Assembly: GCF_003206065.1 (NCBI RefSeq) | Contig: NZ_PZJQ01000004.1 | Span: forward strand, 494,864-558,863 | Direction of reading: 5' to 3' | Length of the DNA: 64,000 nt | From: Salinicola halimionae | GTDB taxonomy: Bacteria; Pseudomonadota; Gammaproteobacteria; Pseudomonadales; Halomonadaceae | In this document: piece by piece, positions 11,705 through 50,599 of the stretch | Numbering within the stretch: position 1 is the stretch's first letter | Layout: each line of letters begins with the position of its first letter | Notes under the pieces: model-generated | Database searches by the model: none | What the model was told of the DNA's origin: nothing | Seen by the model: the letters and a program-made list of their open reading frames with translations, nothing else | Translations under genes and position numbers: made by a program

Positions 11705-12553
11705 TCAGTTCAAGCCGAGCAGACCACGCAGCGTCGACAGATCCTCGGCGAGGACGGTCACGGGGCCGGTCAGGGCGCGACGGTCGGCATCGCTGACCTC
11801 GTCATATGACTCGAAGCCGGCGGTCGGGTCTTCGGTATCCAGGCGATAGTCGGCCAGGGTGGCTTCCACGTCGTCGAAATTGTCCTGAACTCGAGCGACG
11901 AAGTCGGCATCCTCTTCTGCAGCCAGCGGTTTGAACAGATCGAAGATTTCGCGAGCGCCGTCGACGTTGCCCTGGAAGTCCCATAGATCGGTGCGGCTGT
12001 AGCGATCCTCTTCACCGGAAACCTTGGTTGCCGCGACCTCTTCCATCAGCGCCGCCGCACCGCCGACCACCGTCTCCGGCGGGAAGGTCAGACCCTGAAC
12101 ACGGCTATCGAGATCGTTGACGTCATTCATCAACCCTTGGGCGTATGTCTCCATGCCGTCGGTGGTGTTGTCGTGGAACAGTGCATACTCCAGGCGATGG
12201 AAGCCGGTGAAGTCGGGGTCCTCTACACCCTTCTCGTAGTCGTCTTCACGCGCATCGATGCTGGCATCGAGATCGGCAAACAGCTCGGCGATGGGTTCGA
12301 TGCGCTCGTAATAGACACGGGTGGGGGCGTAGAGCGCCTGGGCCTTCTCCACGTCGCCGGTCTTGATCGCGGCGGTGAAGTCCTCAGTGTGCGTGACCAG
12401 TTGTTCCAGATTGTCGAGCACGTAAAGCTTGTAGTCGGCGACCGGACCAACCAGGGCTTCGGGCGCGACGTCGGCGTGAGCGGTGGTGGTGAGCGAGAGC
12501 AGGCCGAGCGCGCCTGCGGTGAGCCACGCTGTCGGTAACTTCGAGGTTTTCAT
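11705..12553 (-). CDS. Periplasmic M75/imelysin-like iron-uptake protein (EfeM-type, no cupredoxin domain)
   Basis: A 282-residue protein with a signal peptide (1-27, cleaved near AHA-DVAP) and one M75/EfeM helical domain. It retains the family motif HxxE in GFHRLEYALF, thought to bind the metal. It lacks the N-terminal cupredoxin domain of full EfeO. GGAG precedes the ATG. It is the last gene of the efeU-efeO-efeB cluster, 150 bp after efeB. It probably captures or oxidises iron in the periplasm for EfeU. It is clearly paralogous to the M75 domain of the neighbouring EfeO, which has lost HxxE. Confidence 0.82.
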   Translation of the reverse strand: MKTSKLPTAWLTAGALGLLSLTTTAHADVAPEALVGPVADYKLYVLDNLEQLVTHTEDFTAAIKTGDVEKAQALYAPTRVYYERIEPIAELFADLDASIDAREDDYEKGVEDPDFTGFHRLEYALFHDNTTDGMETYAQGLMNDVNDLDSRVQGLTFPPETVVGGAAALMEEVAATKVSGEEDRYSRTDLWDFQGNVDGAREIFDLFKPLAAEEDADFVARVQDNFDDVEATLADYRLDTEDPTAGFESYDEVSDADRRALTGPVTVLAEDLSTLRGLLGLN

Positions 12554-12703
12554 TATGTGTCTCCGTTGAGTGATCCGGGGGCTAGTCGGCGGTCGTGAAC
12601 CACGAGCTCGTCTCCGCGAGCGTTGTTGTTTTGAAAGACTCGTTCTGCAAATTCTGTTTTGAAAAAATCCGGATAAATCCCGGGCGCTCTTGCGCCGATC
12701 GGG

Positions 12704-14137
12704 TTACGCGGTTGCAGCCAGCAGGCCCCGACCCAGAAAATCAGTCTCGTCGACCGCGCCGGGCAGGACGAAGAAATAGCCGCCGCCGACCGGTTTGATG
12801 TACTCCTCCAGCGGTTCACCATCGAGACGCTGCTGAACGGCGATGAAACCGGCCTCGAGGTCCGCTTGAAAGCAAAGGAACAGTAATCCCATGTCCAGTT
12901 GCCCATTGGTTTCGACGCCGTTGGAGTAGTTGAACGGCCGGCGCAGGATACGATTTTTCTCGGTCTCGGCGGTACGTGGGTTGGCCAGTCTGATATGGGC
13001 ATCGAGCGGGGTAATGGCGCCTTCCGGATCACTGGCATAGTCGGGAACGTCCTGCTCCTTGCCCTCGACGCCCGCGCCTGTCTTGGAGAGAGGCGCGCCG
13101 CTCATCTTGCGGCGGCCGAAGATCGCTTCCTGCTCTTTCAATGGTGTGCGGTCCCAGCGCTCGACGAAGTTGCGAATGATGCGCGCTGCAAGATAGCTCC
13201 CGCCGTTTGCCCAGGCTGGCTCGTCGTGGTCCTGTCCAACCCATACCAGCTCGTCCATCAGCGCCTCATTGTCGCCCTCGGGGTTGGCGGAGCCATCGCG
13301 GAAGCCGAGAAAATTGCGGGCGCTGCCATCGACGTCCCCCGGCGAGGGTGGCAGCAGCGGCACGGTGCCTTCCTGTTTCCAGCGCACCATCAGTAGCCCC
13401 GGGGTGTTCTTGATGATGTCGCGCAGCGCGTGGTAACCGGTATCCAGGGTATTGGCGCAGATCTGCAGCGCCAGATCACCATGGCAACGCGCAGCATCCA
13501 GCGCATCATTGGGAAACCCCTGCATGTGCTGCAGACGCCTGGGCTGCAAGCCATCAAGCCCGTAGCGCTCATCGAACAGCGAGTCGCCGACCGCGAGCGT
13601 CATGGTCAGTCCATCGGGGGCGATTTCCGGTCCCAGAATGCCGGAGTCCGGCGGCGGGAACAGCGGATTGCGCTCTGGGATCCTGCCGCCCTGGGTCAGA
13701 AAGGCGATGCGCTCGGTCAAGATTTTCAGCAACGTCTCGAGATCGTCTCGATCCCGTGCCAGTACGTCGAACGAGACCAACATGCCGCTGGCTGGACGAG
13801 GGGTGACGACACCCTGTTGATGGTGGCCGTGGAACGGATAGCGCAGCTGAGAATCCTGTTCCTGCGGGGCGCTGGTGACGTCCTGACCGTGCCCTGTCGC
13901 GGCTAGCGCCTGGGCCGGACACGCGCTGCCCAGCGCGAGACCACCGAGTGTGACGCCACTGAGACCGACCATCCCTGCGCTTTTGAGAAACCGGCGGCGT
14001 TCGAGTTTCATCGAGGAATCGATGGCCTTCGACTCGGAAACTTCGGTCGCGCGAGACGTGGTCTCGCAGGCGTTGGTCTCACGGGATGTGGTCTTGAATG
14101 AAAAAGGGCAGCGTGATGGGTGATCGGACTGACTCAT
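12704..14137 (-). CDS. efeB: Deferrochelatase/peroxidase EfeB (Dyp-type, Tat-exported)
   Basis: A 477-residue Dyp-type haem peroxidase. A twin-arginine signal, [16 protein letters not shown], lies at residues about 47-62. It carries the Dyp motif GxxDG as GFRDG (278-282) and a probable proximal haem histidine, His381, in AHIRLANPR. EfeB oxidises ferrous iron or takes iron from haem in the periplasm and works with EfeU and EfeO. ATG 14137 begins 19 bases after the efeO stop; no clear ribosome-binding site is visible. An internal ATG at 14011 would give a more usual short Tat n-region, so the start is uncertain. Confidence 0.92.
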
Positions 14138-14156
14138 AAGCGACGAACCGGGCCGT

Positions 14157-15314
14157 TTAGCCTTCCAAAGTGAGTGCGTGATTGATGTCGGAGAGCGAGT
14201 TGGCCAACGCCCGGGTTGTCTGCAGCAAATCAGCGTCGTCAACTGCGCCTCGCGATGTGGGCGAATCGGTGTCCGCCTGAAGGTCCCGTTGTAGCGCGGT
14301 CAGATTGGACTCGAGCGTGTGCAGGATTTCCGGGGACTGGCTTTCCAGCAGTGGCGACAGCAGCGAGACGATTTTGTCGGCGCCTTCCGTCAAAGCGATG
14401 AGATCGGCGAGATCCCGCGCTTCGATGCTAGTGTCGTCGCGGTGATGATCGAGCCACGTTTCGAGCACGCGAGCGCTGCCGTCCGCCAACTGCTGGGGCG
14501 GAATCGAAGCGCTCTTGAGCCGGGTGGCCAACGTTTCCACGTCTGTCACCAGCTGTTCGGCAGCGGTACTCAAGTCCGCGGTGCTCTGACGCTCGAACAG
14601 ACCGCCGGCGAGCCGATGGAAGCCGACGAAGGCGGGGTCATTCTCGCGTTGCTCGAAATCGTCGGCATGCGCATTGAGGCGCTGGTCGATATCACTGAAG
14701 AGGCCGATCGGCATCGCCAGATGCAGATCGATGCGACGCGCTTCCCGGTAGGCCTGCTGGGCTGCCGAGAGATCGCCGGCGGCTATGGCATCACGTAATT
14801 CATCGGCGCTGCTGCGGAGCTTTCGCAGTTGCAGTGTGGTGTAGACGCGATATTCAGCCAGCGGCCCGATGAAGGCCGTGGTGGAAAGGGCGGCAGGTTC
14901 GGCATTCGAGTCGCCAGCGACGACGTGCAGGGTACCGTGCGGATTGCTGAGCAGACCACAGGTCATCGCATAGTCGCCGGCTTTCAGCGTGGCGGTCAGC
15001 GGCTGGCGTAGGCCGGGAGCGATATTTTCACGTTCCGCGAGCACCATGACGCCGTCGACGATTTCCCACTCGATGGCGCGATCCGACTGATTGACGACGG
15101 TAAAGGTTCGTTGTCCGGCGGGAACTTCCAGACGATTCGGCTCGCAGCCACTGGAAGTGACGTTGACCCGATAACCGTCTTCGTTTGGTGATCTGACCGC
15201 CTCGAGCGACAGGGTGAATACACCCAATGCAAACAGCACGAGCAGGAACGACATGACGAGGCCAAGGCGCAGCGCGCGCGGAGAGGGCGTCGCAGGGTGA
15301 ACGGCGTTGGACAT
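14157..15314 (-). CDS. efeO: Iron uptake protein EfeO (cupredoxin plus M75 domains)
   Basis: A 385-residue protein with an N-terminal membrane anchor or signal (about 15-38). A cupredoxin-like domain (about 45-125) has [14 protein letters not shown] and a MTCGL...PHG copper/iron-site-like cluster. An M75 domain (about 135-380) follows. EfeO delivers ferric or ferrous iron to the EfeU permease. In this copy the M75 HxxE motif reads HRLAGGLF, so the glutamate is replaced by alanine. ATG 15314 lies four bases after the efeU stop; a longer frame to 15416 overlaps efeU and is rejected. Confidence 0.9.
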
Positions 15315-15318
15315 GACT

Positions 15319-16167
15319 TCAGGCCCGCCCTTGCTGAGTGCGGGGTGCCGGTGCGATCCGGCGTGATGTCGGACGTGGTTGCAACAGCCAAAGCGCAGCG
15401 ACGAGATAGCCGACATAGGCGACTACTTCGCTGACCGTCGGAGCAGGCTGATAACCGAAGATGCCGGCGAACAGCGAGCCGAGCGGCGTATCCAGCGGTA
15501 GGGTATTACTTAGATCGAACACGACCTGTTGGGCATGATTCCACAGCCCGGCTTCGTGCAACGCACGCACGGAGCCGGAGAATAGGCCGGCAGCGACCAA
15601 CAGAATGAACATCCCTGTCACGCGGAAAAAATGCCCCAGCGGTAGTTTCAGGCTGCCACGATAGAGAGCCAACCCGGCGACTGCGGCGACACCCAGACCA
15701 AGCAGCGCGCCCAAAGGTGCATGAGCGCTGGTGCTTTGCTGAAAAACGGCGAGTAGGAAGAAGATCGATTCCAGGCCTTCGCGTGCCACGGCCAGAAAGA
15801 CCATGACGATCAGTGCATAGGTGTGTCGTCGACCACTACGAAAAGCGTGGTCGAGCGCTTGTGTCAGCCCCTGGCGCATACCGCTGGCGGCGCGCCGCAT
15901 CCACAGCACCATCCAGGTCAGGACGCCAACGGCGAGAAAGCCGACCACGGCTTCGAACATTTCCTGCTGGCGCTGCGGGAATTCCGCACTGGCGAACTGC
16001 AGGCCTGCACCGACGAACAGGGCCAGCGCTGCGGCCAGGAAAATGCCGATCCAGACGGCGGGCATCCAGGCGCCACGCCCGGTCTGGCGCAGATAGCTTG
16101 CGATGATGCCAACGACGAGAGCGGCTTCCAGTCCCTCTCTCAGCATGATTAAAAATGGTACCAACAT
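15319..16167 (-). CDS. efeU: Ferrous/ferric iron permease EfeU (FTR1 family)
   Basis: A 282-residue polytopic membrane protein of the Ftr1/EfeU family with about seven transmembrane helices. Both diagnostic REGLE iron-transport motifs are present, at residues 10-14 (LREGLEAALVVG) and about 129-133 (AREGLESIFF). It transports iron across the inner membrane after oxidation by EfeB/EfeO. ATG 16167 places the first REGLE ten residues in, as usual in the family; the frame extends to 16257 without homology. It is the first gene of the efe operon, 68 bp downstream of a Fur-like site. Confidence 0.93.
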   Translation of the reverse strand: MLVPFLIMLREGLEAALVVGIIASYLRQTGRGAWMPAVWIGIFLAAALALFVGAGLQFASAEFPQRQQEMFEAVVGFLAVGVLTWMVLWMRRAASGMRQGLTQALDHAFRSGRRHTYALIVMVFLAVAREGLESIFFLLAVFQQSTSAHAPLGALLGLGVAAVAGLALYRGSLKLPLGHFFRVTGMFILLVAAGLFSGSVRALHEAGLWNHAQQVVFDLSNTLPLDTPLGSLFAGIFGYQPAPTVSEVVAYVGYLVAALWLLQPRPTSRRIAPAPRTQQGRA

Positions 16168-16235
16168 GATGGGAACCCGATTGCGAACGAAACGATCATC
16201 AGACAGAACCGCACGTGGCGGGCGAACGGCACGAA

Positions 16236-16250
16236 TGATACGTGTTATCA
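16236..16250. promoter_or_regulatory. Candidate Fur box upstream of efeU
   Basis: TGATACGTGTTATCA matches the 7-1-7 Fur pattern TGATAATNATTATCA at 12 of 14 arm bases and contains the inverted repeat TGATA-N5-TATCA. Its position 68 bp before efeU fits iron repression of the operon. Confidence 0.6.
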
Positions 16251-16257
16251 AATGCAA

Positions 16258-16561: not shown

Positions 16562-17683
16562 ATGGCAATCAATCCCGTTCGAGGCACCGGCCGCGCCAAT
16601 GCCGTACCGGAGCCGCAGACACTAGGTTTTCTGCTGCTGGAAGACTTCACTCTGATCTCGCTGGCCTCGGCAATCGAGCCGTTGCGAATGGCCAATCAAC
16701 TGGCCGGTCGCGAGCTGTACCGCTGGTACGTGATGACCATGGATGGCGCCCCTGTGCGAGCCAGCGATGGCATGCAGGTGACGCCAGATGCCAGCGCCTA
16801 CTCGCCGCTACGGCTCGACTGGCTGGTGGTCTGCGGTGGCGTCGCGCCGCAACGCTCGGTCACGCCGGCCTTGCTGACCTGGCTGCAGAGTCGCCATCGT
16901 CAGTTGAGGCGGGTTGGCTCGGTCTGCACCGGCAGTTGGGCGCTGGCACAGGCCGGCCTGCTTAACGGGTACGATGCCAGCATTCACTGGGAGTGTCTGG
17001 CTGCGATTCAGGAGGCTTATCCCCGCACGGCCTGGAGCACACGGTTGTTCTCGATCGACCGCGATCGTTTCACCGCCTCCGGTGGTACCGCACCGCTGGA
17101 CATGATGCTCAATCTGATCGGCCGCGATCACGGCCGCGAGCTATCCGCGGCCATTTCGGAAATGTTCATCTACGAGCGTGTGCGCGGCGAGGAGGATCAG
17201 CAGCGAGTGCCTCTCAAGCACGTGCTGGGTACCACTCAGCCTAAGCTGCTGGAAATCGTGGCATTGATGGAAGCCAATATCGAAGAGCCGATCGAGCTCG
17301 ACGAACTGGCAAGCTACGTCGATGTTTCCCGGCGTCAGCTCGAACGACTGTTTCAGCGCCATTTGCACTGTTCGCCTTCGCGCTACTATCTCAAGCTGCG
17401 GCTGACGCGCGCGCGACAGCTGCTCAAGCAGACTCCGCTGCCGATCATCGAGATCGCTTCCGCTTGCGGCTTCGTTTCCACGCCTCACTTCTCGAAGTGC
17501 TACCGCGAGTTCTTCGGTACGCCGCCGCGTGAGGACCGTGGTGAAACGTTGAAGATCCGCCGGCTGGAGCCTGCATTCGTTCCACTGGCGGGCAGCGATC
17601 CGCTCATGCAGTCCAGCAGCGCTACCGTCGCGTTGAGTCATGCCCGGGGAGAACCGACCTACGCCAGTATCGCCCTGGGGTGA
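16562..17683 (+). CDS. gbdR: Glycine betaine-responsive AraC-type activator GbdR
   Basis: A 373-residue GlxA-type regulator. It has a DJ-1/PfpI-like sensor domain (about 20-190, with VGSVCTGSWALAQAG and FTASGGTAPLDM) and a C-terminal AraC double helix-turn-helix (about 235-330, ending IIEIASACGFVSTPHFSKCYREFFGTPP). In Pseudomonas, GbdR senses glycine betaine and dimethylglycine and activates gbcAB, dgcAB and soxBDAG. The assignment rests on domain architecture plus location at the head of a complete betaine catabolic cluster. A strong GGAGGAG lies upstream. It is transcribed alone and ends in a hairpin terminator. Confidence 0.9.
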   Translation: MAINPVRGTGRANAVPEPQTLGFLLLEDFTLISLASAIEPLRMANQLAGRELYRWYVMTMDGAPVRASDGMQVTPDASAYSPLRLDWLVVCGGVAPQRSVTPALLTWLQSRHRQLRRVGSVCTGSWALAQAGLLNGYDASIHWECLAAIQEAYPRTAWSTRLFSIDRDRFTASGGTAPLDMMLNLIGRDHGRELSAAISEMFIYERVRGEEDQQRVPLKHVLGTTQPKLLEIVALMEANIEEPIELDELASYVDVSRRQLERLFQRHLHCSPSRYYLKLRLTRARQLLKQTPLPIIEIASACGFVSTPHFSKCYREFFGTPPREDRGETLKIRRLEPAFVPLAGSDPLMQSSSATVALSHARGEPTYASIALG

Positions 17684-18878: not shown

Positions 18879-19206
18879 TCGATTCATCTTCCTTGGTGTG
18901 GGCGATAGTGACTTGATTTGGACGAAAGTGACCGGTCGTGTGGCGGTCATGTCGCGGGGGCGACAGTCCTGAGCCGAATCGACTGTTCTATCCAACGAGC
19001 TCTCGCGCGTCAATCACGTCTCGCATGGTCGGTACTGTCGGGTATGGCTGTCGTGGTGAGGACATTCGATGTGGCGCAATCGGAACACTCGAATTCGCTT
19101 TCGGTCGGCGAGTGGCGCGGACGCAGGGATATGCTGCGCAGAACAGTCGTCCCGGTGCTTCAACAAGCCAATTCGTGACGGGCGCCCAACCAAGGAGGAT
19201 TTCCGC
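18879..19206. promoter_or_regulatory. azlC/dgc-operon divergent intergenic region
   Basis: No gene is seen in these 328 bp. It contains the inverted repeat TGTCGC-GGGG-GCGACA at 18950-18965. Just before it, the imperfect 11-base direct repeat GGTCGTGTGGC/GGTCATGTCGC runs from 18934. Further TGTCG words lie at 19038 and 19051. These are candidate regulator sites (possibly GbdR), unproven. Confidence 0.35.
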
Positions 19207-20184
19207 ATGCCGACGTCATCTCTGCACGACGATGCCATCATCATCGATGGTTTGATCATCGCCAAGTGGGATCGCGCGCTATTCGAGGATATGCGCAAGG
19301 GTGGGCTGACCGCCGCCAACTGCACGGTGTCGGTGTGGGAGGATTTCGAAGCTACCGTCGACAATATCGTCAGCGTCAACAAGCTGATGCGCGATAACGC
19401 CGAGCTGGTGCGGCCGGTGCACACCACCCGCGACATCACTCGCGCCAAGGAAGAGGGCAAGACCGGAATCATTCTCGGCTTCCAGAACGCCTATGCCTTC
19501 GAGGATAACCTGGGCTACGTCGAGATCTTCAAGAAGCTCGGCGTGGGCATTACCCAGATGTGCTACAACACCCAGAATCTGGTCGGCACCGGCTGCTATG
19601 AACGCGACGGCGGGTTATCCGGCTATGGCCGCGAGGTGATCGGCGAGATGAACCGCGTCGGCATGATGTGCGATCTCTCCCACGTCGGTTCCAAGACCTC
19701 TGAAGAAGTCATCCTCGAGTCGAAAAAACCGGTCTGCTACTCCCACTGCCTACCTACCGGTCTGAAAGAACATCCTCGCAACAAACGCGATGACGAGCTC
19801 AAGTTCATCGCCGACCACGGTGGCTTCGTCGGCGTGACCATGTTTACGCCTTTCCTGCGTGCCGGCGTCAACGCCACGGTCGAGGATTACGTCGAGGCGA
19901 TCGTTTACATCATGAATATCGTCGGTGAGGACGCCATCGGTATCGGCACCGACTTCACCCAGGGCCAGGATGAAGCCTTCTTCGAGTGGCTGACTCACGA
20001 CAAGGGCTACGCTCGTCGCCTGACCCGCTTCGGCGAAATCATCAATCCCAAGGGTTTCCGCACGATCGGCGAGTTCCCCAACCTCACCCAGGCACTGCTG
20101 GATCACGGTCTTTCCGAGCCGGTGGTGAGGAAGATCATGGGTGAAAACTGGATGCGGACTCTTGGCAACGTCTGGGGCGAGTAA
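19207..20184 (+). CDS. Membrane-dipeptidase homologue of the dgc operon with an altered metal site
   Basis: A 325-residue TIM-barrel protein of the renal/membrane dipeptidase family. It opens the dimethylglycine operon in the same position as its Pseudomonas relative. AAGGAGG lies eight bases before ATG 19207. Against the human enzyme it keeps the second-site histidines (LSHVG, YSHC) and the aspartate in GIGTDF. The first-site H-x-D reads L-x-I (VIDGHND becomes IIDGLII), the bridging glutamate reads Gln (GFQN), and the substrate histidine is Tyr. It is therefore doubtful as an ordinary dipeptidase. It probably acts in betaine or dimethylglycine metabolism in the cytoplasm; the reaction is unknown. 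Confidence 0.82.
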   Translation: MPTSSLHDDAIIIDGLIIAKWDRALFEDMRKGGLTAANCTVSVWEDFEATVDNIVSVNKLMRDNAELVRPVHTTRDITRAKEEGKTGIILGFQNAYAFEDNLGYVEIFKKLGVGITQMCYNTQNLVGTGCYERDGGLSGYGREVIGEMNRVGMMCDLSHVGSKTSEEVILESKKPVCYSHCLPTGLKEHPRNKRDDELKFIADHGGFVGVTMFTPFLRAGVNATVEDYVEAIVYIMNIVGEDAIGIGTDFTQGQDEAFFEWLTHDKGYARRLTRFGEIINPKGFRTIGEFPNLTQALLDHGLSEPVVRKIMGENWMRTLGNVWGE

Positions 20185-20364: not shown

Positions 20365-20895
20365 ATGACCCTGATGGCCCCTGAACTGCCGATCAACGTG
20401 GACAGCGACACCGGTATCTGGACTACCGATGCGCTGCCGATGCTCTATGTGCCGCGCCACTTTTTCATCAACAACCATATGGCGATCGAGGGTGCATTGG
20501 GTGTCGATGCCTATGCCAAGCTGCTGTATGACGCTGGCTACAAATCGGCCTGGTACTGGTGCGAGAAGGAAGCCGCGCTGCATGGCATCGAGGGCGTGGC
20601 GGTGTTCGAGCACTACATGAATCGTCTCTCGCAGCGTGGTTGGGGGAAGTTCATCACCGACGAGATCGATCTGGAAGCGGGCACGGCGAAGATTCGCCTT
20701 GAGCACTCCTGTTTCGTCTATCAGCTCGGCAAGACCAACACGAAGGTCGACTACATGTTCACCGGCTGGTTCGCCGGCGCCATGGACCAGATTTTAGAAG
20801 TTCGCGGCAGTGAGGTTCGCACCCACGCCGAGCAAACCCAAAGCGGCGCTGAAGAGGGTTGCGATGTTGGCTATTTCGAAGTCGATCCGCGCTGA
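20365..20895 (+). CDS. DUF5943-like protein (4-vinyl-reductase-type fold) of the dgc operon
   Basis: A 176-residue soluble protein. It resembles the conserved gene found between the dipeptidase homologue and dgcA in Pseudomonas betaine loci. The C-terminal half (KIRLEHSCFVYQLGKTNTKV, MFTGWFAGAMDQIL) is like V4R small-molecule-binding domains. GAGG precedes ATG 20365. No catalytic residues can be named, and the function is unknown. A role in binding a betaine intermediate or helping the demethylase is an inference from gene order only. A 180-bp spacer separates it from the upstream gene. Confidence 0.72.
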   Translation: MTLMAPELPINVDSDTGIWTTDALPMLYVPRHFFINNHMAIEGALGVDAYAKLLYDAGYKSAWYWCEKEAALHGIEGVAVFEHYMNRLSQRGWGKFITDEIDLEAGTAKIRLEHSCFVYQLGKTNTKVDYMFTGWFAGAMDQILEVRGSEVRTHAEQTQSGAEEGCDVGYFEVDPR

Positions 20896-21010: not shown

Positions 21011-23080
21011 ATGGCGCACGAAGCCTTATTCAAGCCGATCCAGATCGGTAAGCTGACGATACGTAACCGTGTGGTCAGTACCGCTCACGCCGAGGTTTAT
21101 GCCACCGATGGTGGGATGACGACGGACCGTTACGTCAGGTATTACGAAGAGAAGTCGAAAGGCGGCTGCGGGCTTTGCATCTGTGGGGGGTCCTCGCCGG
21201 TTTCCATTGATAGCCCGCAACAGTGGTGGAGTTCGGTCAACGTCGCCACCGATCGCATCATTCCGCATTTCCAGAATCTTGCCGATGCCGTGCACAAACA
21301 TGGCGGCAAGATCATGATCCAGATCACACATATGGGTCGTCGCTCGCGCTGGGATGGGCACCACTGGTCGACACTGATGTCGCCTTCGGGCATTCGTGAG
21401 CCGGTCCACCGTGCGACCTGCAAGACCATCGAGGAAGAAGAGATCTGGCGCGTGATTTCCGATTTCGCCCAGGGCGCACGCCGGGTGAAAGAGGGCGGCC
21501 TCGACGGCTGCGAGTTGTCTGCTGTTCATCAGCATTTGATCGATCAGTTCTGGAGTCCACGCGTCAACAAGCGCACCGACCAGTGGGGCGGCAGCTTCGA
21601 GAACCGTATGCGCTTCGGCATGGAGGTGCTCAAGGCCGTGCGTGCCGAGGTTGGTGACGATTTCTGCGTCGGCATGCGCATCTGCGGTGACGAGTTCCAT
21701 CCGGACGGCTTGTCTCAGGATGACATGAAGCAGATTGCTGCCTATTACGATGCCACCGGCATGGTCGACTTCTTCGGCGTGGTCGGCTCCGGCTGCGACA
21801 CCCACGACACGCTGGCCAACGTGATCCCTAACATGTCCTATCCGCCGGAGCCGTTTCTGCATCTGGCGGCGGGCATCAAGGAGGTGGTCTCGGTGCCGGT
21901 GATTCACGCCCAGAACATCAAGGATCCGACCCAGGCCGAGCGCGTGCTCGAAGGCGGCTATGTCGATCTGGTGGGGATGACCCGCGCCCATATCGCCGAC
22001 CCGCATCTGATCGCCAAGATCAAGGCCGGGCAAACCGATCAGATCCGTCAGTGCGTGGGCGCCAACTACTGCATCGATCGCCAGTACCAGGGCCTCGACG
22101 TGCTATGCATCCAGAACGCCGCGACCTCGCGGGAGTATATGGGCCTGCCGCACATCATCGAGAAATCCACCGGCCCTAAACGCAAGTTGGTGGTGGTCGG
22201 TGGCGGCCCCGGTGGGATGGAGGCGGCCCGCGTTGCCGCCGAGCGCGGCCACGATGTCACCCTGTTCGAGGCCGAGCCGCAGTTGGGCGGACAGATCACT
22301 TTGGCGTCCAGAGCGCCACAGCGTGACCAGATTGCCGGCATCACCCGCTGGTACGAGATGGAGCTGTCGCGTCTCGGCGTCGACATTCATTTGGAAACAC
22401 GCGCTGACGACGCGACGATTCGCGACCTGCAGCCGGACGTAGTGGTTCTCGCCAACGGCGGCCATCCGTTCCTCGAACAGGTGCCGGAGTGGGGCTACTC
22501 GGACAATCCTGACGAGAGGCTGGTGGTCAGCAGCTGGGACATTCTTGGTGGCAAGGTAGAACCCGGCAGCAACGTCCTGATTTACGACACCATGTGCGAG
22601 TTCAGCGGCATGTCCACTGCCGATTACTGCGCCAGCAAGGGCGCCACGGTCGAGATCGTGACCGACGACACCAAACCTGGCGTGGCCATTGGCGGCACCA
22701 CCTTCCCGACGTATTACCGCAGCCTCTATCAGAAGGCGGTGGTGATGACCGGCGATCTAGCGTTGCACAAGGTCTATCGCGAGGGCGACAAGCTGGTGGC
22801 GGTGCTGGAGAACGAATACACCGGCGAGCATGAGGAGCGCGTGGTCGATCAGGTGATCGTCGAGAACGGCGTGCGGCCGGATGAAGGCCTCTATTACGCG
22901 CTGAAGGATCGCTCACGCAACCACGGTCAGATCGATCTCGAAGCGCTTTACGCAATTCAGCCGCAGCCAACCTTGGCCGAGACGGGAGAGTTCGCGCTGT
23001 TCCGGTTGGGAGATTGCGTGGCGCCGAGGAATACGCATGCGGCGATATACGATGCGCTCCGCCTCTGCAAGGATCTTTGA
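21011..23080 (+). CDS. dgcA: Dimethylglycine demethylase subunit DgcA
   Basis: A 689-residue flavoprotein related to trimethylamine dehydrogenase. It has an FMN-binding TIM barrel (1-370) with MIQITHMGRRSRWDG and HLIDQFWSPRVNKRTDQWGG, then an FeS segment (348-366), then a nucleotide-binding half beginning VVVGGGPGGMEAARVAA (about 394-410). It demethylates dimethylglycine to sarcosine, passing electrons to DgcB and the ETF. The FeS segment has Cys348, Cys354 and Cys366 but Ala351, where trimethylamine dehydrogenase has a fourth cysteine. Start ATG 21011; GAGAGGAG lies upstream. Confidence 0.92.
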   Translation: MAHEALFKPIQIGKLTIRNRVVSTAHAEVYATDGGMTTDRYVRYYEEKSKGGCGLCICGGSSPVSIDSPQQWWSSVNVATDRIIPHFQNLADAVHKHGGKIMIQITHMGRRSRWDGHHWSTLMSPSGIREPVHRATCKTIEEEEIWRVISDFAQGARRVKEGGLDGCELSAVHQHLIDQFWSPRVNKRTDQWGGSFENRMRFGMEVLKAVRAEVGDDFCVGMRICGDEFHPDGLSQDDMKQIAAYYDATGMVDFFGVVGSGCDTHDTLANVIPNMSYPPEPFLHLAAGIKEVVSVPVIHAQNIKDPTQAERVLEGGYVDLVGMTRAHIADPHLIAKIKAGQTDQIRQCVGANYCIDRQYQGLDVLCIQNAATSREYMGLPHIIEKSTGPKRKLVVVGGGPGGMEAARVAAERGHDVTLFEAEPQLGGQITLASRAPQRDQIAGITRWYEMELSRLGVDIHLETRADDATIRDLQPDVVVLANGGHPFLEQVPEWGYSDNPDERLVVSSWDILGGKVEPGSNVLIYDTMCEFSGMSTADYCASKGATVEIVTDDTKPGVAIGGTTFPTYYRSLYQKAVVMTGDLALHKVYREGDKLVAVLENEYTGEHEERVVDQVIVENGVRPDEGLYYALKDRSRNHGQIDLEALYAIQPQPTLAETGEFALFRLGDCVAPRNTHAAIYDALRLCKDL

Positions 23081-23128: not shown

Positions 23129-25156
23129 ATGTTGCAGACGCTACTCCCCATCTTGATCTTTGCGGCACTGATCGTGGGCGCGATAGGCGCCTTGCGCCGC
23201 GTGCGGTTATGGCGGCAGGGCCGGCGCTCGCCGATGGTGTGGCGGCGAATCTTGCTGATACCGAAGCGTTATCTGAACGATCTGCACCACGTCGTGGCCC
23301 GCGACAAGGCGATGGCACATACCCATGTGGCGACGGCTGGCGGCTTCGTTGCGGCAATGGCGCTAGCAGTGGTGGTTCATGGTTTTGGCTGGCGCCATCC
23401 GATTCTCGGCGGGCTGCTGCTGGCGGCGAGTGCCGCGATGTTCGTCGGTGCGCTCGCGGTCAATCGTCGTCGTGTGAAGCCACCTGAAAAGCTCTCAAGG
23501 GGTCCCTGGCAGCGGCTCTCGAAAAGTCTGCTGGCCTACTCGGTCGGAATGTTTCTGATCAGTCTGCCGCTGGTTGGCATCGCTCCCGCATTGTTCGGCG
23601 GCGGCGTACTGGCCGTGTTGCTGATCGCGCTGGTGGCATGGGGCGTGCTGGAAATGATCGTCGGCATGGGCTGGGGTGGACCGATGAAACATGCCTTCGC
23701 CGGGTCGCTGCATCTGGCATTTCATCGCCGTCCCGAGCGCTTCGATGATCGGCATCCCAAGTCTATCCGTCCGTCCGGCCATCAATTCGATCAGGATGCT
23801 AGCCATGACGAGCACCGTGGCAGCCGCTCGACGGCACTGTTTCCGCTGGACCTGAACGCTGAAAAGCTGGGCGTGGAGAAGCCCGCCGATTTCCAATGGG
23901 AGCAGCTGTTGGGCTTCGATGCCTGCGTGCAGTGCGGACGCTGTCAGGCGGTGTGCCCAGCGTTCGCCGCGGGCCAGCCGCTCAATCCCAAGAAGCTGAT
24001 TCAGGACATGGTCGTGGGCATGGCCGGTGGTACTGACTCGGGCTATGCAGGTTCCGGCTATCCCGGTATCGAAGTGGGTAAACACCACGGGGCGAGCGCC
24101 GAGCCAATCGTCCCACAGCTGGTCGAAGCCGAGACGCTTTGGGCCTGTACGACTTGCCGCGCCTGCGTGGAAGAGTGCCCGATGATGATCGAGCATGTCG
24201 ATGCGATCGTCGACATGCGCCGCTTCATCACTTTGGAGCGTGGTGAAACCCCGGAGAAGGGCGCGGCCGCGATCGACAATCTGATCGCGACCGATAACCC
24301 CGGCGGTCTAGACAACGCCTCCCGGCTGGACTGGGCAGCGGATCTGGAGATTCCGCGCATCCAGGATCGTCCTGAAGGGGTCGACGTGCTGCTGTGGCTG
24401 GGCGATGGCGCTTTTGACATGCGCAATCAGCGCACGCTGCGTGCGCTGGTGAAGATACTGCGGGCGGGTAATGTCGACTTCGCCGTGCTCGGCGATGAAG
24501 AGCGCGACAGCGGCGACGTCGCCCGGCGTCTGGGTGACGAAGCGACGTTTCAGCGCCTGGCCGAGCGCAATATCGCGACGTTCTCGCGCTATCGCTTTCA
24601 GCGCATCGTGACCGCCGATCCGCACAGTTTCCACGTCATCGGTCGCGAGTACCCCGCCTTCGGCGGCGAGTACGTCGTCAAGCATCACTCGACCTTCATT
24701 GCCGAGCTGTTCGACGCGGGGCGGCTGAGCGTCGCAACGTCTGAGCAGCGCGAAACCATCACCTATCACGATCCCTGTTATCTGGGTCGCTATAACGGCG
24801 AATTTGCCGCGCCGCGCCAGGTGCTGGCGGCACTGGGACTCGACGTGGCGGAAATGGAGCGCTCGGGCTATCGCTCGCGCTGCTGTGGCGGGGGCGGGGG
24901 CGCTGCGCTATCCGACGTACCCGGCAAGGCTCGGATTCCCGACATGCGCATGATCGATGTGCGCGAGACCGGAGCGACGACCGTCGCGGTGGCCTGTCCG
25001 CAATGTACCGCGATGCTCGAGGGCGTGGTCGAACCGCGCCCCCAGATCAAGGATCTGGCCGAGCTGGTCGCCGACGCGCTTATCGAGCAGCCCACAGCTG
25101 CGGACGATATCGTGAGCCCGGCCGACTCCGAATTTTTCGATGAGGTGCCGGCATGA
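23129..25156 (+). CDS. dgcB: Dimethylglycine demethylase FeS/membrane subunit DgcB
   Basis: A 675-residue protein. The N-terminal part has several membrane helices (about 5-20, 70-125, 135-180). A double [4Fe-4S] ferredoxin region follows (CVQCGRCQAVCP and CTTCRACVEECP). C-terminal CCG domains contain YHDPCYLGRYN and RCCGGGGG. Such proteins carry electrons from a dehydrogenase to the respiratory chain. It is located between dgcA and etfA. The stop overlaps the etfA start by four bases (ATGA). It is the expected partner of DgcA at the inner membrane. Confidence 0.92.
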   Translation: MLQTLLPILIFAALIVGAIGALRRVRLWRQGRRSPMVWRRILLIPKRYLNDLHHVVARDKAMAHTHVATAGGFVAAMALAVVVHGFGWRHPILGGLLLAASAAMFVGALAVNRRRVKPPEKLSRGPWQRLSKSLLAYSVGMFLISLPLVGIAPALFGGGVLAVLLIALVAWGVLEMIVGMGWGGPMKHAFAGSLHLAFHRRPERFDDRHPKSIRPSGHQFDQDASHDEHRGSRSTALFPLDLNAEKLGVEKPADFQWEQLLGFDACVQCGRCQAVCPAFAAGQPLNPKKLIQDMVVGMAGGTDSGYAGSGYPGIEVGKHHGASAEPIVPQLVEAETLWACTTCRACVEECPMMIEHVDAIVDMRRFITLERGETPEKGAAAIDNLIATDNPGGLDNASRLDWAADLEIPRIQDRPEGVDVLLWLGDGAFDMRNQRTLRALVKILRAGNVDFAVLGDEERDSGDVARRLGDEATFQRLAERNIATFSRYRFQRIVTADPHSFHVIGREYPAFGGEYVVKHHSTFIAELFDAGRLSVATSEQRETITYHDPCYLGRYNGEFAAPRQVLAALGLDVAEMERSGYRSRCCGGGGGAALSDVPGKARIPDMRMIDVRETGATTVAVACPQCTAMLEGVVEPRPQIKDLAELVADALIEQPTAADDIVSPADSEFFDEVPA

Positions 25157-26430
25157 GCATCAGGCGTATCGACCCCCACGCCGAGCGCATGCGTCGCAAT
25201 CGGCTGCATCCGCGTCACCAGGAGTTTGCGCGTCCGGCGTGGCGCTGGATCAGCGCCGAGGGCGTAACCCGAGTCAATCCGCACCTCGTGGGAGCCATCG
25301 GCCCCAACGGCATCAAGCGCATCGATCGCAGCGGCGCCTCGGTCGAATCGAGCAGCGTATCGGCTTCTCAGGCTAGCGCGGAACCCTCTCGCCGACAGAT
25401 CGTGATCGCCGAGCCGGCGGGTTACGTCATGGTGGTGCCGGAGCTGGCCGAAGGGCGCTTGAGCGATCACGACCGGGATCTTTTCGGCCTCGCCAGACAG
25501 CTGGCCGACGACCGTCGATTGGCGGTCACCGCAATCACCTTTCAGGGTGGCGTGACCGGCCTGGAAGAGGCCGGTGCGGATCGCTGGCTCGACCTCTCGG
25601 CGAGCGCCGAGGATGGCGATTATTGCCCCGAGGCGCGACTGGCGGGGCTCGAGCGGATCGAAGCGTCGCTGTCGCCGGCACACTGGTTGTTCGCGGATAC
25701 GTTCCCCGGCGGTGGCGATCTGGGGCGGCGTCTGGCGGCGCGACTTTCGGTCCCGTCGGATGGTGCGCAAGGCGAGCGCGCGGCGACGCGAGTGTGGCAG
25801 GTGGCTGACGGCAAGAGCCTGTCGCGGGCCGGCGATCGCCAGGATATTCAGCGCGACGTACCGCGAGTGCTGCTGGCGCTACCCGAGTGCGCCGAACCGG
25901 TCAGCGAGACACGCCACGAGGCGCGGCCGATGATGGTCGACACCGGGCAGAGCGGCACCGATGCGGCTGTCGACATCGGCATCATCGATCGTGGCCGGGT
26001 AGCGGTCGACCCGCAGCAGATCCCGCTGGCGCAGGCGCCGTTCATCCTCTCGGCCGGGCGTGGTATCGGGGACTGGGAAGGCTATCACCACGCGGCCCGT
26101 GTGCTCGGCGCCAGCGAGGGCGCGTCGCGTGTCGCTGTGGACGACGGCTATATGCCGAGAGCGCGTCAGGTCGGTGCTACCGGGACGTTCGTCTCCGCCA
26201 GTTGCTATATCGCGGTGGGGATTTCCGGTGCGGTGCAACATCTGCAGGGCATCGCTCGATGCCAGCGGGTCATCGCGATCAATAGCGACCCGAGCTGCGA
26301 TATGGTCAAACGCGCCGATCTGGCGATCATCGCCGATGGCGACGACGTGCTGAAAGCGCTCTGTGAATCTCTGGGTCAGCCGAAAGCCTCCAGTCAACCG
26401 GGCGAGGAGCCTCTGCATGATGCCGCCTGA
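25153..26430 (+). CDS. etfA: Electron transfer flavoprotein alpha subunit (betaine-locus type)
   Basis: A 425-residue ETF alpha with the FAD-binding C-terminal domain. LSAGRGIGDWEGYHHAARVL, GATGTFVSASCYIAVGISG and SGAVQHLQGI are the family signature, and AINSDPSCDMVKRADLAI follows. The N-terminal 80 residues are an extension rich in Arg and His and unlike housekeeping EtfA. It accepts electrons from DgcAB and probably delivers them to ETF-ubiquinone oxidoreductase, which is not seen here. It is translationally coupled to dgcB. Confidence 0.92.
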   Translation: MSIRRIDPHAERMRRNRLHPRHQEFARPAWRWISAEGVTRVNPHLVGAIGPNGIKRIDRSGASVESSSVSASQASAEPSRRQIVIAEPAGYVMVVPELAEGRLSDHDRDLFGLARQLADDRRLAVTAITFQGGVTGLEEAGADRWLDLSASAEDGDYCPEARLAGLERIEASLSPAHWLFADTFPGGGDLGRRLAARLSVPSDGAQGERAATRVWQVADGKSLSRAGDRQDIQRDVPRVLLALPECAEPVSETRHEARPMMVDTGQSGTDAAVDIGIIDRGRVAVDPQQIPLAQAPFILSAGRGIGDWEGYHHAARVLGASEGASRVAVDDGYMPRARQVGATGTFVSASCYIAVGISGAVQHLQGIARCQRVIAINSDPSCDMVKRADLAIIADGDDVLKALCESLGQPKASSQPGEEPLHDAA

Positions 26431-27292
26431 TGATGCCAATAGCGTGTCCGTATTTGCTCTGGTCTCCAGCGGACGCCACCCGGTTTCCGGGCGTGCCGGA
26501 CGCGCCCGAGAAGACGCGCGTGCCGTCGAGATGGGGCTGATGCTGGCCGGATCGGCGCTGAAGCTGGCCCATGCCGGCGACGCCGACGATGGGGCGTTGC
26601 GGGATTGCCTGGAAGCGTATCTGGGCATGTTTCACGGGCTCGGCGATGATCGTCCGGGGGAGCTCTCGCTGCTACCCATGACGACCGAAGACGATGCCGT
26701 GGCAGCACTGTCGGAATGGTTGGCGAATAGTGGTGCACGACTGGTGCTGACCGGCCAGCGTGCCGAGTGCGGCGAGGGTTCCGCCATGCTTCCCTATCTG
26801 CTGGCGGAACGGCTTGGCTGGTCGGTGGTTGCCGGCATCGCGGCGATCGAAAGCGTCGATGCGGGTAGCGCCACGCTGTTGCAGGCGTTACCGCAGGGGC
26901 AGCGGCGGCGGCTAGACGTACGCTTGCCCTGTTTGGTCGCCGTCGATGCGGTTGCCCCCGCGCCGCGACAGAGCGCCTTCGGGCCCGCACGGCGCGGCAG
27001 CATCAACGTAGTCGAGGGTATCGAGACGAGTCCCGATACCGCTCGTCGAGCGTGGCAGACTCAGCCGGCGCGAGCCAGACCCAGGCGGCTCAAAGTTGTG
27101 AAATCCGGCAACGCCCGGGATCGCTTCAAAGCCGCGGCGGCCAAGTCTTCTGCGTCAGGCGGTCAGGTGCTTTCCGGGCTGACGCCTGACCAGGCGGCTG
27201 AGAAGCTGATCGATTATCTACGTAAGGAGAAAATACTGAGAGAAGAGAAAACTCCTTCCATCAGCGAAGAAGCGTCCGCCGCAGATCAGTAG
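26417..27292 (+). CDS. etfB: Electron transfer flavoprotein beta subunit (divergent, betaine-locus type)
   Basis: A 291-residue ETF beta. ATG 26417 has GAGGAG upstream and overlaps the end of etfA by 14 bases. AMP-binding ETF-beta features are visible but divergent: VLTGQRAECGEGSAMLPYLLAERLGWSVV, and LDVRLPCLVAVDAVAP in place of the canonical signature. A C-terminal extension (about 230-291), basic and then acidic, is longer than in housekeeping EtfB. It pairs with the upstream EtfA. The longer frame from 26363 lies within etfA and is rejected. Confidence 0.88.
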   Translation: MMPPDDANSVSVFALVSSGRHPVSGRAGRAREDARAVEMGLMLAGSALKLAHAGDADDGALRDCLEAYLGMFHGLGDDRPGELSLLPMTTEDDAVAALSEWLANSGARLVLTGQRAECGEGSAMLPYLLAERLGWSVVAGIAAIESVDAGSATLLQALPQGQRRRLDVRLPCLVAVDAVAPAPRQSAFGPARRGSINVVEGIETSPDTARRAWQTQPARARPRRLKVVKSGNARDRFKAAAAKSSASGGQVLSGLTPDQAAEKLIDYLRKEKILREEKTPSISEEASAADQ

Positions 27293-45893: not shown

Positions 45894-47144
45894 ATGCAAC
45901 GCTATTCCGGTTTCAGTCTGGTCAAACACGCGCTCAGTCATCACGAGAACTGGCAGCGTCATTGGCGTAACCCGACCCCGAAAAAAGAGTATGACGTGAT
46001 CATCGTCGGTGGCGGTGGGCACGGCCTGGCTACCGCCTATTATCTCGCCAAGCAGCACGGAATCACCAACGTGGCGGTGATCGAGAAAGGCTGGCTTGGC
46101 GGTGGCAATACGGCGCGTAATACCACGATCGTGCGCTCGAACTATCTGTGGGATGAGTCCGCCGCACTCTACGAGCATTCGATGAAGCTGTGGGAGGGGC
46201 TTTCGCAAGACCTCAACTACAACGTGATGTTCTCACAGCGTGGTGTGCTCAACCTCGGCCACACCTTGCAGGACATGCGTGATATTCAACGCCGCGTCCA
46301 CGCCAACCGTCTCAACGGCATCGACGGCGAGGTGGTCACGCCCGCTCAGATCAAGGAGATCGAGCCGGCGCTGGATACCTCCGAGCGTGCCCGCTATCCG
46401 ATTCTCGGCGCGTCGTGGCAGCCGCGCGGCGGGGTGGCGCGACACGATGCGGTGGCTTGGGGGTTCGCCCGTGGCGCCGATGCACGCGGTGTCGATCTGC
46501 TTCAGCAGACCGAGGTCACGGGCTTCAAGATCCTCGATGGCAAGGTCGTAGGTGTCCATACCAATCGGGGGGATATCGGTGCCAGGACGGTGGGCTGCGT
46601 CACCGCGGGAAACTCCGGCGTGCTGGCGAAGATGGCGGGTTTCCAGCTACCGGTAGAGTCGCACCCCCTACAGGCGCTGGTATCCGAACCGCTCAAGCCG
46701 ATTCTCAACACCGTGACCATGTCCAATCATGTGCACGGTTATATCAGCCAGTCCGACAAGGGCGATCTGGTGATCGGCGCGGGTATCGACGGCTACCTTG
46801 GCTATGGTCAACGCGGCAGTTTTTCGGTGGTGGAGCACACGTTGCAAGCGATCATCGAGATGTTCCCGATGTTCTCCCGTGTCCGCATGAATCGACAGTG
46901 GGGCGGTATCGTCGATACCACGCCGGATGCCTGCCCGATCATCTCCAAGACGCCGGTACAGGGGCTTTTCTTCAACTGTGGCTGGGGGACCGGTGGCTTC
47001 AAGGCGACTCCGGGCTCCGGCAATGTCTTCGCCTGGACGCTGGCCCACGGGCAAGCGCATCCGATCGCCGCGCCGTTCTCGATCGATCGATTCAGAACCG
47101 GCGCGCTCATTGATGAACACGGCGCCGCGGGCGTAGCCCACTGA
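45894..47144 (+). CDS. soxB: Heterotetrameric sarcosine oxidase subunit beta
   Basis: A 416-residue FAD-dependent oxidoreductase. The Rossmann motif is [18 protein letters not shown] (35-52). His184 in [11 protein letters not shown] corresponds to the covalent FMN-attachment histidine of the family. The C-terminal part has [18 protein letters not shown]. It is the catalytic subunit that oxidises sarcosine to glycine. ATG 45894 has GAGGGG upstream; the earlier part of the frame (from 45573) overlaps the LacI-type gene. It starts the soxBDAG-purU operon. Confidence 0.95.
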
Positions 47145-47156
47145 AGGAGACTGGCG

Positions 47157-47513
47157 ATGTTTCATATCTACTGCCCTTATTGCGCCGAGTATCGCGAGGA
47201 GGAGGAATTTCATCCCAAGGGGCAGGCGCACATTGCGCGTCCGGCGGACCCGACGGCGACTTCCGACGATACCTGGGGCGAATACCTTTTCTTTCGCGAC
47301 AATCCTCGCGGCGTGCACCACGAACTGTGGGTCCATGCGGTGGGCTGTCGCAAGTTCTTCAACATCACTCGGGATACACGCAGCTATGCGATCCTGGAGA
47401 CCTATCGCATGGGCGATCAGCCTAGCGTGACGGCTGAGTCCATGATTCTTGCCGAGCGAGATGCCGAGTGCGGAGTCACCTCAACCGCGACGATGCAGGG
47501 AGTGCCGTCATGA
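47157..47513 (+). CDS. soxD: Sarcosine oxidase subunit delta
   Basis: A 118-residue SoxD with the usual zinc site: Cys6 and Cys9 in IYCPYCAEYR, then His60 and Cys64 in HAVGCRKFF. The family core GEYLFFRDNPRGVHHELWVH is intact. The delta subunit binds zinc and stabilises the heterotetramer. It is 12 bp after soxB, and its stop overlaps the soxA start (ATGA). Confidence 0.95.
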   Translation: MFHIYCPYCAEYREEEEFHPKGQAHIARPADPTATSDDTWGEYLFFRDNPRGVHHELWVHAVGCRKFFNITRDTRSYAILETYRMGDQPSVTAESMILAERDAECGVTSTATMQGVPS

Positions 47514-50500: not shown

Positions 50501-50599
50501 GAGAAAGTCTATCTGCCGATGCCGGATGGTGTGACCCACGTGGCCGAAGTGGTCGGCTCGATTTTCTATGACCCGAAAGGGCAACGTCAGAATATTTGA
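47510..50599 (+). CDS. soxA: Sarcosine oxidase subunit alpha
   Basis: A 1029-residue subunit with a ferredoxin-like N-terminal domain (FNGKSYPGYAGDTLASALLA, about 35-55). A NAD-binding Rossmann domain begins VLVIGAGPAGLMAALAA (about 180-196). The C-terminal glycine-cleavage T-protein-like domain (about 630-1029) binds tetrahydrofolate (RAEKGFIIVGQDTDGS). It takes the one-carbon unit from sarcosine to make 5,10-methylene-THF. ATG 47510 has AGGGAG upstream and overlaps soxD; the frame from 47468 is not used. Confidence 0.96.
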   Translation: MSSTQSFRLASESGVGSQIDCDKPLSFIFNGKSYPGYAGDTLASALLANGVDVVNRSFKYSRPRGIVAAGAEEPNAIVQLGSSEAAQVPNVRATQQTLFDGLTARSTNGWPDAQRDMMGLIGKLGGPFMPVGFYYKTFKAPASMWLTYEKYIRKAAGLGRAPTESDPDIYDHMNRHCEVLVIGAGPAGLMAALAAASSGVRVILCDEQPVFGGSLLDSAETIDGMAAFDWALDAVERLAALENVTLLPRTTANGYFDHNFVTLHERRTEHLGDTAPTLDGRRQPRSRLHRIRARHVVLASGAHERPLVYAGNDVPGNLVAGALSTYIRRYAVRPGKRLVLSTTNDYAYRTALDWQNAGGEVVAVADARANPDGELVERAKAAGIRIISGSAVVEATSDRKGHRVNGARVAAIDIEGFRVSGEVELLNCDTVATSGGYSPVVHLAAHTGVRPVWRDDILGFVPGQTIAAFEGFGVVGAAAGVYAAAGVFESAVTQVKRALASDGIDAEEVQIPIVETFREGAAVAMYQVPHDKPTMRAPKQFVDLQNDVTAAAIELATKEGFESIEHVKRYTAMGFGTDQGKLGNINGMAITARCLGQTIPQTGTTVFRPNYTPVNFGAIVGRHCRELFDPERYTAMHQWHVEHGAKFEDVGQWKRPWYYPQKRRERADGKLESMHEAVVRECRAVREKVGVLDASTLGKIDIQGPDAREFLGRIYTNGWEKLAVGKARYGLMCKDDGMVMDDGVTTCLADNHFLMTTTTGGAAAILEWLELWHQTEWPELEVYFTSVTDHWATMTLTGPEARNLLSELTDIDLDRDSFKFMEWREGIVAGVPARVYRISFTGELSFEVNVQANYAMQVWEALFDHGEKYGLTPYGTETMHVLRAEKGFIIVGQDTDGSMTPEDLGMHWCVGYNKPYSWIGKRALTRSDTRREDRKQLVGLKPLEANVVLEEGAQIVLDPKQAIPMRMVGHVTSSYYSPTLEHGFALAVVKGGHKRLGEKVYLPMPDGVTHVAEVVGSIFYDPKGQRQNI

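Follow-up and report, generated by a model that had tools for sequence, protein, structure and literature searches.

An M19-fold protein with a remodelled metal site in a dimethylglycine (dgc) operon of Salinicola halimionae

What does a relative of the membrane dipeptidases do in an operon for dimethylglycine breakdown, when several of the residues that form the metal site in those enzymes have been replaced? The question is raised by one reading frame in the window (the whole 64-kb stretch of Salinicola halimionae DNA that was analysed). Its product (19207..20184) is referred to here as M19*, for an M19-fold protein with a remodelled metal site. Glycine betaine breakdown has a central place in osmolyte turnover and in the use of choline. 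If M19* is an enzyme, this pathway would gain a step that we found assigned nowhere.

Public records name relatives of M19* "dipeptidase" or "membrane dipeptidase". According to excerpts of published work, root exudates induce a transcript labelled "Membrane dipeptidase, dgc operon" along with dgcAB in several strains of Pseudomonas (PMC8079746), and the "dipeptidase" PP_0308 belongs to the RoxR regulon, beside dgcA (PMC10963909). The PP_0308 protein was also detected in a study in which it falls to 0.37 in filament-inducing culture, a drop shared with PP_0315, GlyA-1 and FdhA (PMC3538555, excerpt). The metal site is not mentioned in the excerpts of these three papers.

The gene and its operon

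The reading frame encodes a complete protein of the M19 fold, and the first-pass annotation had its coordinates, strand and frame right. The ATG at 19207 has AAGGAGG on its 5' side and the stop codon lies at 20182-20184. An alternative start at 19069 is unsupported because orthologous reading frames begin at the equivalent of 19207. The motifs IDGLII, GFQNAY, DLSHVG, CYSHC and GTDF are all found in the translation. The match to PF01244 (Peptidase_M19) covers positions 36-317 of the 319 in the profile, and is the sole M19 match (E at most 0.001) in the Salinicola genome, which is rated 99.99% complete. No NCBIfam model matched M19* at E of 0.001 or below. Ka/Ks against eight orthologues is 0.036-0.162 (Ks 0.47-1.39), which indicates purifying selection and rules out a decaying gene.

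As initially annotated, the gene lies inside a dimethylglycine operon. The order is M19*, DUF5943, dgcA, dgcB, etfA and etfB, with gbdR upstream (Table 1). Among the best 80 of 575 related loci, 76 show the six genes in this order, the remaining four are truncated by contig ends, and gbdR was identified in 71. In P. putida KT2440, PP_0308 is the M19* gene and, judging from the neighbours named in PMC10963909, PP_0309 would be the DUF5943 gene. We assign the dgcA-type protein as dimethylglycine dehydrogenase alpha by synteny. For the electron transfer flavoprotein beta subunit, translation probably starts some 28 codons into the reading frame. Beyond the dgc operon, about 19 kb from its downstream end, genes for sarcosine oxidase (soxBDA) were identified at 45897-50596. 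Reading frames on the - strand at 11705-16257 could form an iron uptake operon of the EfeUOB type, which they resemble. Elsewhere the genome has a second dgcA-like gene, with 44% identity (G000:C4:486520-488547).

Linkage was assessed in 398 genomes of the phylum, with E cut-offs of 1e-20 for the M19* search and 1e-100 for the dgcA search; dgcA was counted at 62% identity or more, and hits at 37-53% were treated as paralogues. M19* (at least 59% identity) was identified in 30 of these genomes, DUF5943 in 31 and dgcA in 27, and every one of the 27 with close dgcA carries both M19* and DUF5943. The genes are also close together: at most 250 bases separate M19* from DUF5943 (26 of the 27 genomes) and at most 400 separate DUF5943 from dgcA (all 27). 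M19* at this identity occurs in three of the 371 genomes without close dgcA (G545, G636 and G638), each time with DUF5943. The link between M19* and dgcA has a Fisher p of 7e-39 over the 398 genomes with kinship ignored; all 27 linked genomes belong to the class of Salinicola and 22 to its order, and they fall into six families. Among 38 genomes with dgcA-like hits at 37-53% only, companions were identified solely in G545 (both) and G428 (DUF5943). G446 and G741 (dgcA-like, 51-53%) lack both companions, and therefore a dgcA cut-off at 50% would give a link of 27/29. DUF5943 occurs without a close M19* in G428, and G627 (M19* at 48%) has no DUF5943 match.

Table 1. Genes of the dgc region and sites within M19*, in window coordinates
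Feature	Coordinates	Strand	Basis
gbdR, choline/betaine catabolism regulator	16562..17683	+	NF052371 594.5 bits, cut-off 480
M19*, 325 aa	19207..20184	+	PF01244 294.6 bits, cut-off 26
L16-I17-I18, replacing site-1 His-x-Asp	19252..19260	+	profile and locus alignments
E45 after strand 2, candidate new active-site acid	19339..19341	+	conservation
Q93, replacing bridging Glu	19483..19485	+	alignments
Y120, at substrate-binding His position	19564..19566	+	alignments
E132, D134	19600..19608	+	conservation
H159, kept site-2 His (strand 5)	19681..19683	+	alignments
H180, kept site-2 His (strand 6)	19744..19746	+	alignments
R191-N192, kept	19777..19782	+	alignments
D249, kept catalytic Asp (strand 8)	19951..19953	+	alignments
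Long loop following D249, exceeding its canonical M19 counterpart by about 25 residues	19954..20037	+	alignments
DUF5943 protein, probably V4R-like fold, usual M19* companion	20365..20895	+	profile, linkage, model
dgcA-type flavin oxidoreductase	21011..23080	+	family match; PMC12093977 (excerpt)
dgcB-type Fe-S protein with DUF3483	23129..25156	+	profile match
Electron transfer flavoprotein alpha subunit	25153..26430	+	profile match
Electron transfer flavoprotein beta subunit	26363..27292	+	profile match

The metal site and the fold

Twelve relatives were combined in a profile, which was aligned with M19 enzymes of solved structure (DPEP1 from human and pig, 1itq and 9h0b, and SCO3058, 3id7). 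The DGH motif of DPEP1 and SCO3058 falls on DGL of M19*, so that L16 stands in place of the site-1 His. The site-1 Asp sits in an insertion of the profile alignment and has no aligned counterpart; no other M19* residue is placed there. We take I18 as its counterpart because it is the plain continuation from DGH/DGL. The Glu of EGGH (in GVEGGH) falls on Q93 (in GFQNAY), and LTHS or LTHN of the solved enzymes falls on MCYN, which puts Y120 in the place of the substrate-binding His (presumably His152 of DPEP1).

The first-pass annotation had read the site-1 H-x-D as L-x-I and the bridging Glu as Gln, and both replacements are borne out. L16, I18 and Q93 are identical in all of the best 80 loci among 575 confirmed relatives, and Y120 is Tyr in the same 80. 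Q93 and Y120 are also unchanged in all 124 dgc-type rows ("dgc-type" meaning at least 44% identity for residue counts and at least 59% for genome counts). The further claim that Tyr replaces the substrate-binding His is correct for Y120 and was attached to the wrong residue: the Tyr of GFQNAY aligns with the His of EGGH at column 96, which varies (His 66, Tyr 12, Gln 1 and Asn 1 in the best 80 loci).

The site-2 His pair and the Asp of GTDF are kept, as had been noted. H159, H180 and R191 are present in all 179 distinct sequences of the set described below, D249 in 178 and N192 in 172, down to about 23-30% identity. The Arg of DPEP1 equivalent to R191 binds the substrate carboxylate, and the kept R191 hints that M19* still recognises a carboxylate. 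Relative to a two-zinc membrane dipeptidase (EC 3.4.13.19), M19* retains the site-2 His pair with the strand-8 Asp and lacks the site-1 His-x-Asp, the bridging Glu and the substrate-binding His.

Other residues appear to be specific to the remodelled proteins. E45, Q117, Y120, N121, Q123, E132 and D134 are fixed in dgc-type rows (121-124 of 124) and in a sister clade with L-x-Y at site 1 (26 of 26). E45 is Glu in 121 of the 124 and is unconserved in 10 canonical rows (five of them with an unaligned N-terminus); E132 and D134 are unchanged in all 124 and are likewise unconserved in canonical M19. The loops differ as well. In dgc-type and L-x-Y rows, as in the other Gln-Tyr rows and the intermediates, the stretch between D249 and N292 (catalytic Asp to the PNL motif) has median lengths of 42-48 residues; in the 10 canonical rows the median is 17. 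Strand 1 is followed by a shorter loop in M19* (14 versus 24.5 in canonical rows, where the range is wide, 0-34).

An AlphaFold2 model of M19* has a mean pLDDT of 79.7, with lid residues 262-282 below 50. It matches 2i5g with Z 47.3 and DPEP1, GliJ and SCO3058 with Z of about 36-37. M19 entries other than 2i5g (rows 2-17 of the comparison) have Z 32.8-37.0 overall, and NagA and phosphotriesterase about 18. The model supports an intact M19 TIM-barrel, in agreement with the initial reading; the fold itself was already known because M19* matches 2i5g and M19 entries.

The closest solved structure is 2i5g, a P. aeruginosa "amidohydrolase" from 2006. It has the same length (325), can be aligned end to end with M19* (phmmer match over the full length, 606 bits) and shares the L-x-I, Gln, Tyr, His, His, Asp set. 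It differs in having His at column 96, where M19* has Tyr, and in other scattered residues. We take 2i5g to be a member of a dgc operon, at locus PA5396. No relevant paper on 2i5g, PA5396 or DUF5943 was found in what was mostly the open literature, and a published phenotype may exist.

Comparison with characterised systems places M19* apart from the dipeptidases. DPEP1 (1itq/9h0b) shares the fold, the site-2 His pair, the catalytic Asp and the Arg-Asn pair with M19*, but has DGH-ND, the bridging Glu and LTH; its loops are the opposite of those of M19* (longer after strand 1, none long after the Asp). GliJ (5lwz and mutants), a Cys-Gly dipeptidase of the M19 fold (Z 36.5) with canonical site-1 ligands, also has the Glu and the LTH His, unlike M19*. 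Human DPEP3 (6vgo, Z 34.8), a vertebrate membrane-anchored protein of the M19 family for which the literature searched gave no structural paper, reportedly shows little or no dipeptidase activity. Amidohydrolases that do without the customary pair at site 1 have precedents in NagA and LigI, neither of them M19 enzymes. NagA of E. coli (1ymy, Z 17.9 to the M19* model) uses one metal, bound at site 2 by a Glu and two His, and LigI is metal-free. Of the NagA-like site-2 set, the two His are present in M19* and the Glu is replaced by Gln.

Relatives and their genomic settings

We collected 236 reading frames, which after a minimum length of 250 residues and merging of identical sequences gave 179 distinct sequences (the best 80 from the relatives scan, 86 from G genomes, 12 from plasmids and the source M19* itself; M19* of locus L112 was located by tblastn). 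The set is biased towards M19* and says nothing about how common M19* is. Within this biased set, 158 of 179 combine a lost His-x-Asp with Gln and Tyr. Six (L099, L101, L102, L222, L223 and L224) have His-x-Gly or His-x-Cys with Glu and Tyr, and by sequence are apparent intermediates of metal-site loss. The remaining sequences are canonical (His-x-Asp, Glu and His; 5), Glu-His with an unaligned N-terminus (5), Gln-Tyr with an unaligned N-terminus (3), lost-Glu-Tyr (1) and other (1). Gln combined with the substrate His was found in none of the 179 rows.

L-x-I/Gln/Tyr is not a signature of dgc operons. Of the 179 sequences in this biased set, 161 have both Q93 and Y120, among them neighbours of sarcosine oxidase, transporters and aldehyde dehydrogenase, and loss of the metal site is thus not confined to the dgc setting. 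The Ile of L-x-I is typical only at 44% identity to M19* or more (112 of 124).

In a tree of 98 of the 179 rows, rooted at the midpoint and with long branches that meet, the canonical rows form one side of a branch with 100/100 support. The dgc-type and L-x-Y rows form a clade (70 rows, support 100/99), and the deep order is weak (43/23). The state labels, which derive from the same residues as the tree, change four times for Gln/Tyr and twice for the intermediate state. Given these counts, the midpoint root and the weak deep order, it is conjectural that the intermediate state came first. If M19* is metal-poor, the canonical, intermediate and remodelled members would provide a natural series for metal loss under selection.

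Some copies of M19* are near sarcosine oxidase genes. M19* follows soxBDA in G699, where DUF5943-dgcA is about 460 kb away, M19*-DUF5943 lies 5' of soxBDA in G636, and M19* is immediately after soxBDAG in Azospirillum TSH58. Others are near transporters. M19* closes a five-gene ABC transporter cluster in Salipiger and Paroceanicella, and M19*-DUF5943 follows such a cluster in G638 and lies between an ABC transporter cluster and a gene annotated solA in Methylobacterium. M19*-DUF5943 adjoins a symporter in G673 (second copy), G545 and Paracoccus kondratievae, for which ProP is the second-best NCBIfam model, below its cut-off; ProP is the fourth model for the neighbouring symporter of Paracoccus versutus. 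M19* of Caballeronia NK8 adjoins another kind of MFS carrier. An FAD/NAD(P) oxidoreductase was identified near all five rows at 44-55% identity.

The L-x-Y sister clade comprises 26 rows, one of them L-x-C. Its loci encode an aldehyde dehydrogenase (17 of 26; the best model is alpha-ketoglutaric semialdehyde dehydrogenase, below cut-off), a BCCT transporter (11 of 26) and a DUF3726 protein (4 of 26). The recurrence of betaine-type transporters and N-demethylating flavoenzymes across these settings suggests N-methylated zwitterions. A protein of about 580 amino acids is encoded near 22 of the 26, the other four loci covering less than 4 kb of DNA (e.g., L113:12395-14140, with homologues in L112, L211, L239 and others). 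No Pfam match was identified at E 1e-5 for four copies and only insignificant ones for three, and neither NCBIfam (two copies) nor the PDB (one copy) gave a match. It looks like a second uncharacterised family in a betaine-type catabolic cluster.

DUF5943 is not an obligate partner. M19* at 55% identity or higher occurs in 20 plasmid records, of which 14 also carry DUF5943 and six lack it (two Caballeronia, Ponticoccus, Salipiger, Paroceanicella and Paracoccus versutus). The best PDB rows for a moderate-confidence model of the DUF5943 protein (pLDDT 74.2) are the phenol-sensor domains of PoxR, MopR and DmpR (Z 8.6-9.7), which we take to be V4R domains. The match to MJ1460, a "vinyl-4-reductase", has Z 7.2. 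For all of these Z values, the level usual for unmatched models is 7-8. PF02830 (V4R) does not match the DUF5943 protein of Salinicola, and a distant homologue scores 25.4 bits, under the cut-off of 31. PLSDB labels two DUF5943 copies "4-vinyl reductase". Judging from the model, DUF5943 likely has a V4R-like ligand-binding fold.

Possible function of M19*

On sequence grounds it is well supported that M19* is not a dipeptidase. M19* has an intact fold, its site-1 ligands have been lost and its gene is tied to a dimethylglycine operon, which together make ordinary dipeptide hydrolysis unlikely. The label "dipeptidase" in Pseudomonas, halomonads, Burkholderia and their relatives is very probably a misnomer for M19*. 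The first-pass annotation had left the choice between a new activity and a binding role; we favour an enzyme, with a binding-only role possible. A working enzyme is preferred because the remaining catalytic residues are invariant and because of the transporter-plus-M19* neighbourhoods. We consider it somewhat probable that M19* is a live, re-tooled enzyme of the amidohydrolase superfamily, acting in N-methylglycine metabolism, and not a decayed dipeptidase.

Such an enzyme would hold one metal ion at most, at site 2 (H159, H180 and perhaps Q93 with water), or none; since Gln binds zinc poorly, site 2 may hold no metal. D249 could serve as the proton shuttle and R191 could anchor a carboxylate, with the lid closing on a small zwitterion, an N-methylated derivative of an amino acid. 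This substrate may be imported, or may be formed as glycine betaine is broken down via dimethylglycine to sarcosine. DUF5943, if V4R-like, could be a partner or a ligand sensor. As a guess, M19* would cleave a C-N bond in an adduct or imine that N-demethylation leaves behind. The case for a step on a demethylation intermediate is weakened by the transporter-only neighbourhoods, which fit an imported substrate better.

The same protein might instead be a pseudoenzyme, a non-catalytic barrel that acts as a ligand-binding, scaffold or sensing subunit of dimethylglycine and sarcosine demethylation, perhaps with DUF5943. We regard this as unlikely. In its favour, half of the metal site is lost, M19* accompanies close dgcA in 27 of 27 genomes, the DUF5943 model resembles sensor domains, and the invariant pocket residues could serve ligand binding as well. 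Against it stand the near-complete retention of the remaining catalytic residues in distant relatives (178-179 of 179) and the copies of M19* that follow sox genes or have a transporter as their only obvious partner, which show that M19* is not tied to one complex.

A more specific proposal, which we find doubtful, is that M19* represents an undescribed amidohydrolase branch that acts, in most cases alongside a V4R-like partner, on an imine, a carbinolamine or an adduct of formaldehyde by hydrolysis, and whose site 1 was dismantled stepwise. The Asp and the substrate His would have been lost first (giving His-x-Gly or His-x-Cys, Glu and Tyr), followed by the His and the bridging Glu. This compound would be set free during the N-demethylation of dimethylglycine and sarcosine by flavoenzymes, and M19* would be a missing hydrolytic step of betaine catabolism.

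Improbable to a slightly greater degree is a binuclear centre rebuilt from other residues (e.g., E45, E132 and D134), which would make M19* a conventional two-metal hydrolase with altered ligands. These acids are near-invariant in dgc-type and L-x-Y proteins and unconserved in canonical M19, but they align with no site-1 ligand, and the bridging Glu has given way to Q93. Very improbable is an ordinary dipeptidase that works with a degenerate one-metal site: the names in public records and the kept Arg and catalytic Asp would suit it, but M19* has replacements for the site-1 ligands, the bridging Glu and the substrate-binding His alike, has rebuilt loops and shows a genetic link to N-methylglycine catabolism.

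Returning to the preferred reading of M19* as an enzyme, one locus in G428 is of a different kind. A PF01979 amidohydrolase gene (L200:8306-10115, with an HAH motif) is encoded where M19* is expected, and DUF5943 begins 5 bases on. It is possible that another hydrolase has replaced M19* before DUF5943 in this single case. Around G428, DUF5943 was identified in 3 of 199, one a fragment, and G835 has M19* adjoining.
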